DNA of 64,000 nucleotides from positions 7,316,001-7,380,000 of the forward strand of contig NZ_CP041244.1 in NCBI RefSeq assembly GCF_006547145.1, read 5' to 3'. The DNA comes from Actinomadura sp. WMMA1423 (lineage in GTDB: Bacteria > Actinomycetota > Actinomycetes > Streptosporangiales > Streptosporangiaceae). The position numbers and the translations under genes are program-made. This document shows positions 9,199 to 16,997 of this stretch, piece by piece. Under the pieces are notes generated by a model. It was not told the DNA's origin. It ran no database searches and worked only from the letters and a program-made list of their open reading frames with translations. The first letter of the stretch is position 1. Every line of letters starts with the position of its first letter.

Positions 9199-9407
9199 GA
9201 CGGGGGTCCTGCCCGCCCGGCGGCCGGAGACAGGCCGATCGCCAAGGGATTGCGAAGCCTTGCCGAACCCGTGGCACCGCCGGCCCGCGCCGCCGGTTGA
9301 CCCAAAACGTGCACTTCCTTGGGCTAGTTGATCGGGCCTTCGGGAACCAGACCGGACGCAGGAAGTCCCGTCCGTCGATCACGCATGCCCGTTCAAGGAG
9401 TCGGCCA

Positions 9408-10409
9408 TTGTCCTCGGCACCCACTCCGCCGGACCCGTCCGAACCGCCCGAGCCGGCGGAAACGGCGGCGAATCCGGAGCGACGCCGAGGCCTTGACCGT
9501 CTGCTCACGATTCCGCGGGGCGTCGCCCAGGTCGATTTCCAGCCGAACTACTGGACCGGCCTGGTCTTCATCGTCGCGCTGTTCGTGGGCGGGTGGCAGT
9601 TCGGCGTCTTCGGGCTGCTGGGAACGGTGGCCGCCACGCTCACCGCCCATCTGCTGGGAGTCTCCTGGCGGGACCGGATCTCGCTGGGGCTGGAGGGCTT
9701 CTGCGGCACGCTGATCGGCGTCAGCCTCGTCCTCTACCTGGACATCCGGTGGATGACGGCCCTGCTCGTGGTCGGCGGCGCGATCGCCGGCAGCGTGCTC
9801 ACCGCGGCGCTGAGGGTCTTCCTGGCCCCGTACGACCTGCCCACCTTCACCGCTCCCTTCTGCGTGGTCACGTCCGTGATGGTGATCGGCGGGCCGTCCT
9901 TCGGCCGGATCTGGGCGGAGCACGCGGGCTCGGCCCCGCCGTCCGCGTCCGCTCCCGGGACGGCGATGACCTGGAACTACTTCTGGAAGGGCACCTTCAG
10001 CGGCGTCGGCCAGGTGTTCTTCCAGAACCAGTGGTACGTCGGACTGATTTTCCTGGCCGGGCTGGTCCTCGCCGGCTGGGTGACCGGGCTGGTGGCTCTG
10101 GCCTCCAGCCTCATCGGCCTGCTGACCGGCTGGGTCCTGGGCGCGCAGGCCGCGGACCTGGGAGCGGGCCTGTACGGCTACAACTCCGTGCTGACCGGCC
10201 TCGCGCTGTTCGGCACCTTCGTCGCGATCAGCCCGGTGAGCGCCGTGTACGCCGTGGTCGGCACGGTGGCGGCGGCCGGCCTGACGGCCGGCATCGGCAC
10301 CCTGTTCGAGGTGGTCGGAGGCCACACCCTCACCTGGCCGTTCGTGCTGGTCAGCTGGGTGTTCCTCGCCGCCGTCCCGATGCTCAAGAAGATCGAGCGC
10401 ACCGGTTGA
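9408..10409 (+). CDS. Urea transporter (UT family)
   Basis: 333-residue polytopic membrane protein with two repeat halves and about ten hydrophobic segments. The UT signature FxAPF is present as LPTFTAPFCV near 145, and the second half carries the conserved GLYGYNSVLTGLALFG motif. It should let urea enter the cell to feed the urease encoded next. The start is TTG 9408, because AAGGAG at 9395-9400 is correctly spaced for it; the longer reading upstream has no ribosome binding site. The cytosolic N terminus is Pro/Glu-rich. ureA follows after 35 bases. Confidence 0.9.
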   Translation: MSSAPTPPDPSEPPEPAETAANPERRRGLDRLLTIPRGVAQVDFQPNYWTGLVFIVALFVGGWQFGVFGLLGTVAATLTAHLLGVSWRDRISLGLEGFCGTLIGVSLVLYLDIRWMTALLVVGGAIAGSVLTAALRVFLAPYDLPTFTAPFCVVTSVMVIGGPSFGRIWAEHAGSAPPSASAPGTAMTWNYFWKGTFSGVGQVFFQNQWYVGLIFLAGLVLAGWVTGLVALASSLIGLLTGWVLGAQAADLGAGLYGYNSVLTGLALFGTFVAISPVSAVYAVVGTVAAAGLTAGIGTLFEVVGGHTLTWPFVLVSWVFLAAVPMLKKIERTG

Positions 10410-10444
10410 CCGTCGGTGGAGCCGGGCGCGGAAAGGAGCACTGA

Positions 10445-10753
10445 ATGAACCTCACCCCGCGGGAGATGGACAAGCTGGTCATCTTCACCGCCGCGCAGAT
10501 GGCGCAGCAGCGCCGGGACAGGGGCCTGAAGCTCAACTACGCCGAGACGGTGGCGCTGATCAGCTCGGCGATCGTGGAGGCCGCCCGGGACGGCCGGACC
10601 GTCGCGGAGTGCATGGAGCTCGGCAAGCGGGTCGTCGGGCCGGGCGACGTGCTGCCCGGCGTGCGCGCGATGCTGAAGCTGATCCAGATCGAGGCCGCCT
10701 TCGACGACGGCACCAAGCTGGTCTCCTGCCACGACCCGGTCGGCGGCAAGTAG
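10445..10753 (+). CDS. ureA: Urease gamma subunit
   Basis: 102-residue urease gamma subunit, full length for the family. It carries the typical [15 protein letters not shown] start and the [12 protein letters not shown] and [16 protein letters not shown] segments. It is a structural subunit of the Ni-dependent urease that splits urea to ammonia and carbamate. GGAAAGGAG precedes the ATG. The TAG stop overlaps the GTG of the following CbiX-like gene, so that insertion is translationally coupled to the urease operon. Confidence 0.97.
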
Positions 10754-11637
10754 TGCCCGGCGGCCGGAAGGTCATCCTGGTCGGCGGGCATGAGAGCCGG
10801 CAGGGCCGGTGCCTTCCGGCCCTGGTCGGGCTCGCCGGCCCGGACGTCCGCGCGCCGGGACGGGACCTTCACGCGGCGCTGCGGGGCGGCGACCGGATCG
10901 TGGCGGTGCCGATGACGCTCGGGCGCGACCCGGACCTGCCGGTCGTCACCGCGCAGACGCTGAGGTGGGCGGCCCGTGGCCGCGCGCCGGGGGATCTGCT
11001 GCTGGCCGGTCCGCTGGGCACCGCCGAGCACCTGGTCAGCTGGATCAGGGGCGCGGTGAACCGGGCGCTGGGCGACGGACCGGGAGAGCGCGCGGTGCTG
11101 CTGGCGGCGCCCGCCGCCGGGCCCGAGCCGGACGCCGACCTGTTCAGGGTGGCGCGGCTGGTGTGGCAGTACACGCCCGTCCGCTGGGTCGAGGTCGCGC
11201 TGGAGGGGGGCGAACCGGACGTGGACGAGGGGCTCGAACGCTGCCGCCGGCTGGGGGCGGGCGACGTCGTCCTGGTTCCCGCCTCCTTCGTTCCGGTGCC
11301 GCAGCGGCCCGGCGCCCGGACCGCGGGCCCGCTCCTGGGGAGGGCCTCTCTCGCCGCGCTGATCCGCGAACGGGTGGCCGAGGCGGAGCAACGGTGGAGC
11401 CGGCACGGCGACGACGGGCTGGCGCAGGCCGCCCACGGGCACGGCCACGGCCACGGGCACGGGCACGGCCATGAGGACGAGCAGAGTCACGCAGAGGAGC
11501 AGAGTCACGGGGACGAGCAGGGCCGCGGTCATGGGGACGAGCGCGGGCCGGGCCATGAGCAGGGCCACGGGCGAGTCCCGGAAATTCCACGCCGGGTGAT
11601 GGCGGACTTCAAAGGGGAGGGGTCCCATGTCGGATGA
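10753..11637 (+). CDS. CbiX/SirB-like protein with histidine-rich C-terminal tail, inside urease operon
   Basis: 294-residue two-lobed class II chelatase-like protein. The first lobe begins [12 protein letters not shown], where the family has the catalytic HGSR motif (here GHESR), and the second lobe has the [19 protein letters not shown] and VVLVPASFV pattern. From about residue 228 a tail of alternating His/Gly then acidic/His repeats follows (bases about 11437-11580, roughly 18 histidines), like the Ni-binding tails of UreE or HypB. It sits between ureA and ureB, overlapping both. No ureE is present. Inference: it stores or hands nickel to the urease assembly proteins. A tetrapyrrole chelatase role is the alternative. 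Confidence 0.82.
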
Positions 11638-12076
11638 CGTTTACATGTACGGCGAGGGCGATATCGAGCTGAACGCCGGTCAGCCCAGGGAGACCATCTT
11701 TGTGCAGAACACGGGGGACCGCGCCGTCCAGGTCGGGTCGCACTTCCATTTCTTCGAGACCAACCGGGCGCTGAAGTTCGATCGCGACAGGGCGTTCGGA
11801 AAGCGCCTGGACATCCCCTCGGGAACGGCGGTCCGGTTCGAACCCGGGGACACCAAGGAGGTGACCCTGGTCGAGTACGGCGGAGGGCTGCGGCTGGTGG
11901 GGTTCGGCGGCCTGCTCAACGGCAGCGTCCGGTCGAGCGAGGCGCACCGCACGGCGCTGCGGAGGCTGCACAAGCGCGGCTATCTCGACGAGCCGGTGGA
12001 AGCGCCGAAGAAGGCGTCCAGGAGGACGAAGTCCGCACGTTCGGGAAAGACCGCACGCTCCGGAAAGAAGGGCTGA
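11627..12076 (+). CDS. ureB: Urease beta subunit
   Basis: 149-residue urease beta subunit. It contains the conserved [11 protein letters not shown] start, [11 protein letters not shown] and the [16 protein letters not shown] segment. The C-terminal 40 residues add a Lys/Arg/Ser-rich extension ([13 protein letters not shown]-like repeats) not found in shorter homologues. The ATG at 11627 lies inside the end of the previous gene and has AAAGGGGAGGGG upstream. ureC follows after 6 bases. Confidence 0.96.
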
Positions 12077-12082
12077 GCCGCC

Positions 12083-13804
12083 ATGACCACGATGAGCCGT
12101 CAGCAGTACGCGTCCATGTACGGCCCGACGGTCGGCGACCGGCTCCGCCTCGGGGACACCAACCTCGTCGTCGAGGTGGAGAAGGACCACACCGAGGGGC
12201 ACTACGGGGACGAGGCCCAGTACGGGGGCGGCAAGACGGCCCGCGACGGCATGTCGGCCGACCCGGCGTCGGGGCGGTCGACCGCCCTGGACGTCGTGAT
12301 CACGAACGCGCTGATCCTCGACCCGGTGCTGGGCGTCGTCAAGGGCGACATCGGCATCAAGGACGGGAGGATCGCCGGGATCGGCAAGTCGGGCAACCCG
12401 CACACCCAGAACGGCGTCGACCGGCGCCTCATCATCAGCGCCACGACCGAGGTGGTCTCCGGCGAGAACTTCATCGCCACGCCGGGGGCGATCGACACCC
12501 ACGTCCACTTCATCTCGCCCCAGCAGGCCCAGCACGCGCTGAGCAACGGGATCACCACCCTGGTCGGCGGCGGCACCGGCCCGGCGGACGGCAGCCGCGG
12601 CTGCACCACCACACCCGGCCCGTGGAACATCGCCCGCATCCTCCAGGCCTACGAGGACATCCCGATCAACATCGCGGTCTACGGCAAGGGCAACAGCAGC
12701 CTGCCGGGCCCGCTGGAGGAGCAGATCGCCGCCGGCGCCGCCGGGCTGAAGGTGCACGAGGACTGGGGCTCCACCCCGGCCGTCATCGACTGCGCGCTGT
12801 CGGTCGCCGACGAGATGGACATCCAGATCAACATCCACACCGACACCCTGAACGAGGCCGGCTTCGTCGAGGACACCATCAACGCGATCAACGGCCGCGC
12901 GATCCACACCTACCACTCCGAGGGCGCGGGCGGCGGGCACGCCCCCGACATCCTGCGGGTGACCGGCGAGCCGAACGTGCTCCCGGCCTCCACGAACCCG
13001 ACGCTGCCCTACACCGCCAACTCGGTGGACGAGTTGCTGGACATGACGATGGTCTGCCACCACCTCAGCTACGACGTCCCCGAGGACGTGGCGTTCGCCG
13101 ACAGCCGCGTGCGCGCCGAGACCATCTCGGCCGAGACGGTGCTGCACGACCTCGGCGTCATCAGCATCATCGGCTCGGACTCCCAGGCGATGGGCCGGGT
13201 GGGCGAGTCGTTCACCCGCGCCTTCCAGGTGGCCCACCACAACAAGGACAAGAGGGGCGCGCTGCCCGAGGACTCGTCCCGCAACGACAACTTCCGGGTG
13301 CTGCGCTACCTGGCCAAGCTGACGATCAACCCCGCCCGCGTCTCCGGGATGGCGGACACGATCGGCTCGCTGGAGGACGGCAAGCTCGCCGACATCGTGC
13401 TGTGGCCGGTCCACTCCTTCGGCGCCAAGCCCTACATGGTCATCAAGGGCGGCCTGGTGAGCTGGGTGCAGATGGGCGACCCGAACGCGTCCCTGCCGAC
13501 GCCGCAGCCCGTCTACTACCGGCCCATGTACGGGGCCTTCGGCCGGGCGCTGTCGAGCACCTGCGTGACCTTCATGTCCGGCGCCGCGATCGAGGCGGGC
13601 GTGCCCGAGCGGCTCGAACTGAAGCGGCTGGTCCGGCCGGTGCGCCAGTGCCGGACCGTCGACAAGCGCCACATGCTCCGCAACTCGACGCTCGCCGAGA
13701 TCAAGGTCGATCCGGAGACGTACCGGGTGACCGTCGACGGGGAGCCCGCGCACATCGAGCCGGCCACGAAGCTGCCCCTTAACCGGCTGTTCTTCTTGGC
13801 ATGA
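12083..13804 (+). CDS. ureC: Urease alpha (catalytic) subunit
   Basis: 573-residue catalytic subunit that hydrolyses urea at a binuclear nickel centre. All the expected residues can be read: H140-x-H142 (DTHVHF), the carbamylated lysine K223 (GLKVHEDWG), H252 (NIHTDT), H278 (HTYHSEG), the flap Cys325 with H326 (MVCHHLSYD) and D366 (GSDSQAMGR). Length is normal. The stop overlaps the start of ureF (ATGA). The enzyme should be active once nickel is loaded by UreD, UreF and UreG. Confidence 0.98.
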
Positions 13805-14511
13805 GCGCGCGTCCGGGCACCGCGGACCTGGACCCGCTGCTGGCCCAGCTCCAGCTCACCGACTCCGGCTTCCCGAGCGGGATGTACACGCTGTCGCACG
13901 GGCTGGAGGGCTACGTCCAGCTGCGGATCACCGGGCCCGAGAACCTGCGGGAGCTGCTGGCCGACCTGCTGTACAACGCGGTGGGCCCCGCGGACGCGAC
14001 GGCGCTGGCGCTGGCGCACCGAGCGGCCCGCGAGGCGGACTGGGACGGGCTGGTCCGCGTCGACCGGCGACTGCACGCGATCAAGCTCAACCGCGAGCAG
14101 CGGGGCGCCTCGACCCGGACCGGGCGGCAGGTGCTCGCCACGGCGGCCTTCGCCTTCCCCGTGCCCGAGGCCGCCCGGCTGGCGGACCTGGTGGCGGAGA
14201 AGGCCACGCCGGGCAACCACGCGGTCGTGGTGGGCGCGCTCTACGCGGGCCTCGGCGTGCCGGCGGCGCACGCGGTCGCGGCCGACCTGTACGCGTTCGC
14301 CGCGAGCTGGACTGCGGCGGCGGTGCGGCTCGCCCGCACCGATTTCCGGCGAGCCCAGGGGCTGCTGCGGGAGATCCGCCCGGACCTCGCCCGGGTCGCG
14401 CGGGCCGCGCTCGCCGCCCGCGACCCGCGGGAGATGCACGGCTCGGTGCCCGTCGCCGACGTCGTCTCGGCCGCGCACGAGCGGGCCGCGGCCCGCCTGT
14501 TCGTCACCTGA
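13801..14511 (+). CDS. ureF: Urease accessory protein UreF
   Basis: 236-residue, mostly alpha-helical UreF. The family start [19 protein letters not shown] is intact. It acts in the UreD-UreF-UreG complex as the regulator of UreG GTPase during nickel delivery. It overlaps ureC by four bases and is followed after 23 bases by ureG. Confidence 0.95.
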
Positions 14512-14534
14512 CCCGTTGACACGAAGGAGACGTG

Positions 14535-15170
14535 ATGGAGCTGGAGAAGGTCTTCAAGGTGGGCGTCGGCGGCCCGGTCGGATCCGGCAAGACGGCGCTG
14601 ATCGAGGCCCTGGTCCCGCGGCTGCAGGGCCTCGGCCACCAGGTCGGCGTGATCACCAATGACATCTACACCCAGGAGGACGCCGAGCACGTCCGCCGCA
14701 CCCTGGCCGGGACGCTCGACCCCGAGCGGATCGTGGGGGTCGAGACGGGCGCGTGCCCGCACACCGCCGTCCGCGACGACCCGACGATGAACCTGGCGGC
14801 GGCGGCCGAGATGCTCGACCGCTTCCCCGAGCTCGACCTGCTGCTGTTCGAGAGCGGCGGAGACAACCTCACGCTCACCTTCAGCCCGGCGCTGGCCGAC
14901 GTGTACATCTTCGTCCTGGACACCGCCGAGGGCGAGAAGATGCCGCGCAAGCGCGGCCCCGGCACCACGGACTCCGACCTCCTGGTCATCAACAAGATCG
15001 ACATCGCCCCGTACGTCCGCACCGACCTCGCGGTCATGGAGCGGGACGCGCGGGCGGTGCGCGGCGAGGGCCCGGTCGCGCTCACCGACTGCCTCGTCGG
15101 TACCGGCGTCGCCGAGGTCGTGGACTTCATCGAGGCGCGGGCGGGGGCGGCGTGTACCTCGCCGGTGTAG
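14535..15170 (+). CDS. ureG: Urease accessory GTPase UreG
   Basis: 211-residue SIMIBI GTPase that powers nickel insertion. The P loop GPVGSGKT is at 13-20, the metal-binding CPH motif appears as [18 protein letters not shown] is the Walker B region, and NKIDIAPY gives guanine specificity. ATG 14535 is preferred over the adjacent GTG 14532 because AAGGAG at 14524-14529 is then 5 bases away. The gene after it (ureD) begins inside its last codons. Confidence 0.96.
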
Positions 15171-16120
15171 GGACGGTGAGCGGCTCCGGGGGGACCGACC
15201 GCCTCTCGCCCGAGCGGTACCTTCCCCGCTGGGTGCCGGACGCGGTGCGGCGGCACGCCTCGGCCGTGGACATGCTCCCGGTCGGCAGCCCCGGCAAGGT
15301 CGGGCTCCTCGACCTGGAGTTCGAGCGCGTCGGCGGCAGGACGGAGCTGACCGGCCGCTACCAGAAGGCGCCGCTGCACATCATCCGGCCGCTCTACCCC
15401 GACCCGGCGGTACCGGACCTGCCGTACGTCATGCTCATGTCGTCCGGAGGCGGGGTCCTCCAGGGCGACCGCTACCGCGTGGACGTCTCCTGCGGCGAGG
15501 GTGCGTCCGTGCACGTCACCACCCAGGGCGCCACCCGGCTCTACCGGATGGAGCAGGACTACGCCACGCAGATCGTCGGGCTCACGGTGGGCCCCGGCGG
15601 CTACCTGGAATACCTGCCGGACACGACCATCCCCTTCGGCGGGACCCGCTTCTACCAGCACGTCGCCATCACCGCCCACCCGGACTCGACCGTCGTGGTG
15701 GGCGAGACGATGCTGGCGGGCCGGCTCGCCCGCGGGGAACGGCACGCGTACACGGCGCTTTGCAGCGACGTGGAGGTGCACGACACCACGGGGCGGCTGC
15801 TGTTCGCCGACCCGCTCCACCTTGTGCCGGAAGAACGGGCGGTGACCGGCCCCGCGGTGATGGACGACTTCGGTGTTCTGGCGTCCCTGTACGTCGTCAC
15901 CACGGCCAGTCCCGCGCAGGACGTGGCCGACGCGATGCACGAGGCGCTCGCCGGCACCGGGCTGCGGGCCGGGGCCAGCGTCCTGCCCGGGGACCGGGGC
16001 GCCTGGGCGCGCGTCCTGGGGGAGTGGTCGCCCGAGGTCGAGACCGCCTTCATGGGGGCCTGGGACGCCGTCCGCCGCCTGCTGCTCGGAGTGCCCGCAC
16101 CTGACCGGCGCAGGTGGTGA
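15152..16120 (+). CDS. ureD: Urease accessory protein UreD/UreH
   Basis: About 322-residue UreD scaffold that binds apo-urease and channels nickel. Family features are [45 protein letters not shown] and the [14 protein letters not shown] block. The start is uncertain: GTG 15152 (overlapping ureG) or GTG 15176; neither has a strong ribosome binding site, which suggests coupling to ureG translation. The stop overlaps the GTG of the first fluoride channel gene. Confidence 0.92.
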
Positions 16121-16644
16121 CCCCGGCCATGGGGGACCCTGGAAGGGCGGAAGGACGCCTGCTCCACCGCGAGGCGGCCGAGACCTCCGTCCTGGACCGG
16201 GGGAGGAAAGGGCCGCTCCGGCACCCGGGGATAGCGCCGCGAGCGCTCCTCGACGTCGCCATCGGGGGCGCGGTCGGGGCCCTGGCTCGTGATCTGATCA
16301 TCAAGGCGATGCCCGGAGCGCGGCACGGCTTCCCCTGGGGGACCCTCCTGGTCAACATGCTCGGCTGCCTCTTCATCGGGATCCTGACGACGTACCTGCT
16401 CAAGGGGAGGCCGCACCCCGTCGCCCGGCCGCTGCTGGTGACCGGCTACCTCGGCGGGTTCACCACGTTCTCCCACCTCATCGACGGGGTGCACGCCCTC
16501 GGCCGCGCCGGGGTCTGGGACCAGAGCGCCGTCTACGCGGTGGTCAGCGTGGTGGGCGGCTGGATCGCGGTCGCCGTCGGCCTCTGGGGCGGCGGGCTCC
16601 TGCCCTACCGCGCGGCGGGGTCCGAGGACGGCGCGCCGCCATGA
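16114..16644 (+). CDS. crcB: CrcB/Fluc fluoride channel, long subunit
   Basis: 176-residue four-helix membrane protein of the CrcB/Fluc family, which exports fluoride. The motifs GGAVGALARD, PWGTLLVNMLGC and GGFTTFSHL are present. An N-terminal cytosolic extension of about 45 residues is longer than usual; ATG 16129 would shorten it slightly. The gene overlaps ureD and its stop overlaps the next crcB (ATGA). Tandem unequal crcB genes usually form one heterodimeric channel. Confidence 0.93.
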   Translation: MVTPAMGDPGRAEGRLLHREAAETSVLDRGRKGPLRHPGIAPRALLDVAIGGAVGALARDLIIKAMPGARHGFPWGTLLVNMLGCLFIGILTTYLLKGRPHPVARPLLVTGYLGGFTTFSHLIDGVHALGRAGVWDQSAVYAVVSVVGGWIAVAVGLWGGGLLPYRAAGSEDGAPP

Positions 16645-16997
16645 TCTACGTGCTGGTGCTCGTCGGAGGCGCGTTCGGCGCCATGCTGCGCTTCGTCCTC
16701 GACACGCTGGTCAAGCGGCGGTTCGGCAAGGCGTTCCCCTGGGGGACGCTGACGGTCAACCTCCTCGGCACGGGGATCCTAGGAGCGCTGCACGGCGCGA
16801 GCGTCAGCGCGGGCCCGGAGGGCCTGGTCGGTACGGGCTTCTGCGGGGCGCTGACCACGTTCAGCACGTTCGAGCTGGACACCGTTCACCTCTTCCAGGA
16901 CGGGAAGTACGCCAGGGGCGCGGCGAACGTGCTCCTCTCCCTGGGCCTCGGCATCGGCGTCTTCACGCTCCTGTACGCCGCGTTCCAAGCGGTCTGA
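16641..16997 (+). CDS. crcB: CrcB/Fluc fluoride channel, short subunit
   Basis: 118-residue second Fluc subunit, close to the usual family length. GGAFGAMLRF, PWGTLTVNLLGTG and the GALTTFSTFELD motif that lines the fluoride path are present. It overlaps the first crcB by four bases, so the two should be made together. No fluoride riboswitch was seen ahead of either gene; expression is therefore expected to follow the urease operon. Confidence 0.94.
   Translation: MIYVLVLVGGAFGAMLRFVLDTLVKRRFGKAFPWGTLTVNLLGTGILGALHGASVSAGPEGLVGTGFCGALTTFSTFELDTVHLFQDGKYARGAANVLLSLGLGIGVFTLLYAAFQAV

Follow-up and report, generated by a model that had tools for sequence, protein, structure and literature searches.

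The histidine-rich tail of K. aerogenes UreE is described as a dispensable store (PMC7055735), a statement that was counted here against the role proposed below for X. As described in PMC2770081, genomes without UreE mostly bear a His stretch on UreG, and UreE and the UreG stretch replace each other; UreG of M. tuberculosis is given there as carrying such a stretch, Frankia CcI3 as having neither UreE nor the stretch, and HypB was proposed for UreE-less cases whose UreG is not His-rich. The exchange between UreE and the UreG His stretch is thus already published, and what is new here is the proposal of a third carrier, the product of a gene (X) that lies within the urease operon and is related to those of tetrapyrrole chelatases. 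For these enzymes, the metal ligands of SirB are reported to be His10, Glu43 and His76, and CfbA is presented as a homodimer of small chains in which His9 and His75 form a pair (PMC11301274). No published description of a CbiX-like protein in a urease operon was recognised in the literature searched, as judged mostly from search summaries.

Gene content and layout of the urease cluster

The analyzed stretch of DNA (hereafter the window, 64,000 nucleotides in full) belongs to the genome of Actinomadura sp. WMMA1423, 9.5 Mb in one contig. A urease cluster was found at positions 9297-16120 of the window, with all genes on the forward strand, in the order urea transporter, ureA, X, ureB, ureC, ureF, ureG and ureD. 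The urea transporter gene (UT, 9297..10409; PF03253, start codon uncertain), which lies 5' of ureA in X operons, is followed by ureA (10445..10753; urease gamma subunit, PF00547) and by X (10753..11637), a gene encoding 294 residues from a GTG start and recognized by its open reading frame, PF01903, the AlphaFold2 model, the fold search and its orthologues. Next come ureB (11627..12076; beta subunit, PF00699), whose start overlaps the end of X, ureC (12083..13804; alpha subunit, PF00449 and PF01979), ureF (13801..14511; PF01730), ureG (14532..15170; TIGR00101 and PF02492, likely Met start at 14535) and ureD (15176..16120; PF01774, approximate start). The urease genes of this cluster and the lack of ureE among them had been noted in an earlier sequence-only reading; Pfam searches confirmed the genes, and no recognisable ureE was found in the cluster or in the genome. 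A single ureA was found in the genome, so by this search no other urease is present besides the cluster. The encoded UreG has the CPH motif and the P-loop and lacks a His-rich N-terminus.

At 10753 the GTG start of X and the TAG stop of ureA have one base in common, and X overlaps ureB by 11 bases, from the ureB ATG at 11627 to the end of the X stop codon at 11637. The ureB ATG and a purine run lie inside the last codons of X, and the C-terminal end of X (K-G-x-x-S-H-V-G) is alike among near relatives; to judge from this arrangement, start signals of ureB may be the reason for the conserved end. Past its Pfam domain, which ends at residue 99 of 149, the ureB product has a Lys/Arg/Ser-rich C-terminal extension. 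On the 3' side of ureD (16114-16997 of the window), two short overlapping ORFs resemble, by eye, a CrcB/Fluc fluoride-channel pair.

Fold of X and its histidine-rich tail

The Pfam scan of X gave a match to CbiX (PF01903; 27.2 bits, cut-off 22) over residues 124-177 only, one sub-threshold DUF and nothing else; neither a UreE_N nor a UreE_C domain was found in that scan, nor a P-loop GTPase domain of the cobW/HypB/UreG kind with Pfam and NCBIfam. PF01903 was matched at E ≤ 0.01 by 29 of 30 aligned X orthologues, and X was not among the matches of a genome-wide six-frame search with this profile at E ≤ 0.001. The AlphaFold2 model (30 sequences) showed a two-domain chelatase fold with pLDDT ≥ 90 at 208 of 294 residues, confidence being mostly above 90 in the core and low from about residue 220 on, where the chain is predicted to be disordered. 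The best solved match by VIA-align 2 was B. subtilis SirB (Z 14.4, 215 aligned residues, rmsd 4.7, 14% identity), other near structures being coproporphyrin ferrochelatases/CpfC and CbiK; Foldseek placed FetB, ferrochelatases, SirB and CbiK in its top ranks, and the best result of a profile search of PDB sequences was only E 0.22. A CbiX/SirB-fold protein between ureA and ureB and overlapping both, as the sequence-only reading had it, is therefore confirmed by the Pfam match, the model and the two overlaps.

The disordered tail (residues 220-294, positions 11410..11634) contains 13 His. The His-rich tail noted earlier is real, but the claim of about 18 His in the last 65 residues was an overcount: 12 were found there, 13 in the last 70 residues and 17 over the full length of X. 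No stretch of 65 residues in any of the seven other cluster proteins has more than five His. Tail length is very variable across X and some members have long H-G repeats, as would be seen if the tail were low-complexity repeat sequence evolving neutrally in a GC-rich genome. That explanation is hardly credible, given that His is kept across X lineages while its partner residue varies among Gly, Asp and His, that codons are mixed in the tail of the window (nine CAC and four CAT; Gly as GGG, GGC, GGT and GGA), and that the fewest tail His occur in the three X proteins without adjoining urease described below. At one locus (L235, genome G1042) an apparent frame shift was seen in the His tail of X, with reading on for hundreds of residues, due to either a sequencing error or a real frameshift.

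The PF01903 match, the SirB fold and the first metal-binding His (SirB His10, X His13), which is kept in 46 of 48 urease-linked X rows, would also fit an ordinary sirohydrochlorin chelatase for iron, cobalt or nickel located in a nitrogen-assimilation operon, providing for example siroheme for nitrite reductase. Yet the second metal-binding His (SirB His76) is absent from X in all rows read, the YH..DIP stretch being missing with G-R-D/E in its place, and the chelatase HGSR motif is HESR. Moreover, the source genome encodes two further CbiX proteins with both metal-binding motifs intact, one beside a cysH-like gene and the other beside a HemD-like gene (both neighbours were named by eye), so that X does not have to be the source of siroheme; dependence on X had been named earlier as a finding that would speak against a nickel role. 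The loss of the His76 equivalent together with the two intact CbiX proteins elsewhere makes tetrapyrrole chelation by X unlikely, and its linkage is to urease, not to siroheme genes. A siroheme chelatase was rejected on these grounds, and we consider the broader reading as a sirohydrochlorin chelatase very improbable. A PF01903 match, then, need not mean sirohydrochlorin chelatase. The analogy with nickel insertion by CfbA, on which the nickel hypothesis had partly been built, is weak for the same reason, the second metal-binding His being gone. Another weak CbiX-like protein was observed in the source genome (L109, 5169-6272; G000:C1 near 2882591; 22.4 bits, cut-off 22).

Distribution and gene order

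A clear X orthologue was found in 34 of the 298 genomes of the family (core query, E < 1e-25); the next matches in the family jump to E 3e-12 and weaker, and were taken as other CbiX proteins. The gene order described above was complete, from UT to ureD, in 28 of the 34, and in three others (G061, G224 and G071) it was the same as far as the contigs reach; the remaining three (G001, G068 and G099) had X without adjoining urease genes. Among 396 genomes sampled from the phylum, the X profile was matched at E ≤ 1e-15 only by the genome of the window and by G543. X was detected in 17 of 189 genomes of the genus of G543, at 18 loci, 15 of which had the same gene order while the other three were cut by contig ends. 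The number of genomes had been 18 before G969 (L249) was dropped as another CbiX relative (2.5e-16, 36% identity, no urease genes in the region). L207 was also dropped, as a duplicate of L246, and alignment A1 was made without L009, L011, L013 and L014, which are the window itself and duplicates of L008, L007 and L006. In addition, X was found on a plasmid of Streptomyces sp. NBC_01237 and on a second plasmid, from Embleya sp. NBC_00896 (L208, NZ_CP108777.1), where it occurs with ureB and a UT fragment and with no ureA or ureC within the 14.6 kb read. The co-occurrence with urease that had been suggested as a check is thus evident both in the family and in the genus of G543, and the conclusion that X is a constant member of one type of urease operon in soil actinomycetes is supported.

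UreC sequences from X operons of the family shared 71-95% identity with UreC of the window, vs. 49-54% in 39 of 40 sampled X-less clusters of the family and approximately 31% in the other (L146), which was retained as an exception. These 40 operons are a hand-picked subset of the listed ureA places, 12 from X-bearing genomes and 28 from others; ureA occurs more than once in several X genomes. UreF and UreD of the window, used as queries, were each matched in only 5 of the 40 X-less regions, and no urea transporter was found in these regions (reaching approximately 2 kb 5' of ureA) with the window protein as query. X operons made up one side of a branch both in the UreC tree, built by a quick method (32 of 90 rows, SH-aLRT 99), and in the UreG tree (31 of 84 rows, support 99/97). 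A UreE row adjoins the X operons in the trees, and both UreE rows are long branches for which the program issued a false-join warning.

Absence of UreE and the His stretch of UreG

In the source genome, UreE_N had no match at E ≤ 0.01 and the best match to UreE_C (E 0.125, 15.8 bits) was below the cut-off; a ureE elsewhere in the genome, which the sequence-only reading had considered capable of overturning its proposal, was accordingly not found. UreE_N exceeded the cut-off in none of the 298 family genomes, where seven sub-threshold fragments were obtained at E ≤ 0.01 (control positive in 2 of 14), and ureA was present in 211 of them. UreE is hence absent family-wide, with or without X, and X operons are not set apart by lacking it; the candidate rule that UreE is missing only where X is was rejected, and the tie between X and UreE absence expected from the earlier neighbourhood check did not hold. 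At the level of the class UreE was over the cut-off in 2 of 246 genomes, making it rare among the actinomycetes sampled.

UreG of X operons begins 10-12 residues before the P-loop, and this segment has no His in 27 and one His in 4 of the 31 family operons, and none at 14 further X loci in the genus of G543 (0-1 His in all 45 X operons). X-less operons of the family, by comparison, have 2-7 His before the P-loop in 39 of the 40 sampled, and in these the usual His carrier is UreG. Fisher's test of this contrast (0/31 vs. 39/40) gave 2.5e-19, a value to be read with the relatedness of the rows in mind, since the contrast is mainly one clade against others and the rows do not represent independent cases. 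The start of each UreG was set by rule (the nearest ATG before the P-loop, or else an alternative start; the nearest Met for the genus of G543) and is uncertain for some class-level rows. Both class-level UreE operons had a short, His-less UreG, with no X found, and one of their genomes (G371) holds a second urease without UreE whose UreG has three His. Among 18 other class-level urease loci, UreG was readable in 16, with at least two His in 10 and 0-1 His in 6. The latter (L197, L198, L200, L201, L202 and L203, by the start rule) have neither UreE nor X, which indicates that a His carrier is not always needed. The nickel chaperone on a chelatase fold proposed in the sequence-only reading is therefore backed by the operon linkage and by the reciprocity with the UreG His stretch, but not by the missing UreE, which is not specific to X operons.

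HypA and a HypB with approximately eight His before the P-loop are also encoded in the source genome, side by side (HypB: L210, G000:C1:3590290-3590907). They might constitute an alternative source of nickel, either feeding X or bypassing it.

X without adjoining urease and the conserved His93

The three X genes without adjoining urease genes differ in their surroundings. In G001 (L095, approximately 325-375) the ureA before an intact X is reduced to a short remnant with its first and last residues only, and no ureB was found 3' of X on the 5.7-kb contig. In both G068 (L101) and G099 (L102), which carry one genus label, X comes immediately after UT, with no urease genes near. A ureA elsewhere in the genome was not found in G068, and one each was found in G001 and G099. 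X is intact in all three and its tail has three His each, vs. 11 in G121, a genome with the full operon that shares its genus label with G068 and G099. The lowest tail count in urease-linked X is four His (L100), so that the tail alone separates the two groups only narrowly.

A scan of 55 core columns (at least 90% conserved in urease-linked X; 51 rows, with G071 contributing two rows as two fragments) singled out one position: only His93 differs in all three urease-less X. Position 93 (codon 11029..11031) is His in 50 of 50 urease-linked rows, vs. Asp, Asp and Glu in the urease-less ones, in a scan that was made after the losses had been seen and in which the three genomes amount to two lineages. 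The residue lies close to where helix 91-105 begins in the AlphaFold2 model. X of Embleya sp. NBC_00896 keeps His93 and 11 tail His despite having no ureA or ureC nearby, and its cluster may have decayed recently.

The core columns other than His93 stay conserved in urease-less X, and dN/dS of the G068/G099 pair was 0.37 compared with 0.41 for a pair with urease, which is a hint only, coming from a simple counting method and few pairs. Being kept under such a value without adjoining urease, the X core may have another role, and in G068 and G099 X may retain it, perhaps with the urea transporter. This persistence beside UT, as well as the overlap of X with both ureA and ureB, would be in line with X serving the structure or folding of the urease subunits or of the transporter, or having some other core function, with the His tail of minor importance. 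We judge such a role improbable, as urease gamma and beta subunits assemble without X in X-less operons of the same family, and a reciprocity of His stretches with UreG would not be expected from it.

The tail is the clearest metal-binding feature predicted for X and is very variable, so X might act as a nickel buffer only, storing or detoxifying nickel near urease with no hand-over, while maturation is fed by HypA/HypB or by free nickel. The presence of HypA and His-bearing HypB in the source genome agrees with this, as does the published proposal of HypB for cases with neither UreE nor a UreG His stretch. A storage tail would, however, leave unexplained both an invariant core His that is altered only where urease is lost and the fixed place of X between ureA and ureB, and we regard pure buffering as unlikely.

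Proposed role of X and comparison with known systems

X is rather probably a urease maturation factor, which would gather Ni(II) and hand it over to the UreDFG-apo-urease complex, taking the place of UreE with a scaffold unrelated to it. Support for a nickel role comes from the operon linkage, from the reciprocity with the His stretch of UreG, and from the two changes that accompany urease loss, an altered residue 93 and a shorter His tail. The identity of the metal as nickel, its transfer, the partner for docking and the function of His93 are inferred by us. By analogy with UreE, the disordered tail would collect nickel as a store of variable size, and the core, presumably no longer inserting metal into tetrapyrroles, would present one nickel ion at or near the old cleft. 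His93 is the best candidate ligand, perhaps with the acidic residue 59 or Cys164 as co-ligands. Docking might take place on UreG or on the urease subunits (apo-urease), translated from the same overlapping genes and message.

If this is true, X would newly account for nickel supply in an entire urease lineage, cases lacking both UreE and a UreG His stretch having been left to the HypB guess, and a chelatase fold would have been turned into a protein metallochaperone with His93 as the single residue of interest. There is, in our estimation, an even chance that X founds a class of protein metallochaperones derived from a tetrapyrrole chelatase, in which the cleft was rebuilt (second His lost, His93 invariant) so as to load nickel into an apo-enzyme rather than a ring, providing urease with a third nickel supplier.

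Compared with the SirB/CbiX class II chelatases (PF01903), X has the fold, the Pfam match and the first metal-binding His in common, but lacks the second one, has a long His tail, and is encoded in a urease operon instead of among siroheme or cobalamin genes. The sirohydrochlorin nickelochelatase CfbA resembles it in a related half-domain (6m28_A, Z 11.7 over 100 residues) and in the nickel theme, whereas X consists of two domains in one 294-residue chain and is devoid of a His75 equivalent and thus of the His9-His75 pair. UreG with a His-rich N-terminus, reported from actinomycetes, plants and fungi (PMC2770081), likewise bears a His stretch in UreE-less urease systems; it is, however, a GTPase, and UreG of X operons has lost or never had the stretch, which is carried by X instead. 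UreE (PF02814/PF05194) is similarly encoded in the urease operon and has a His-rich C-terminal tail in many, not all, cases, and one conserved His of its core is regarded as the ligand of the transferred nickel (PMC7055735), the proposed counterpart in X being His93; unlike UreE, X has no UreE domain and adopts a class II chelatase fold. Most likely, as predicted from genomes, X adds to UreE and His-rich UreG a third kind of nickel carrier for urease.
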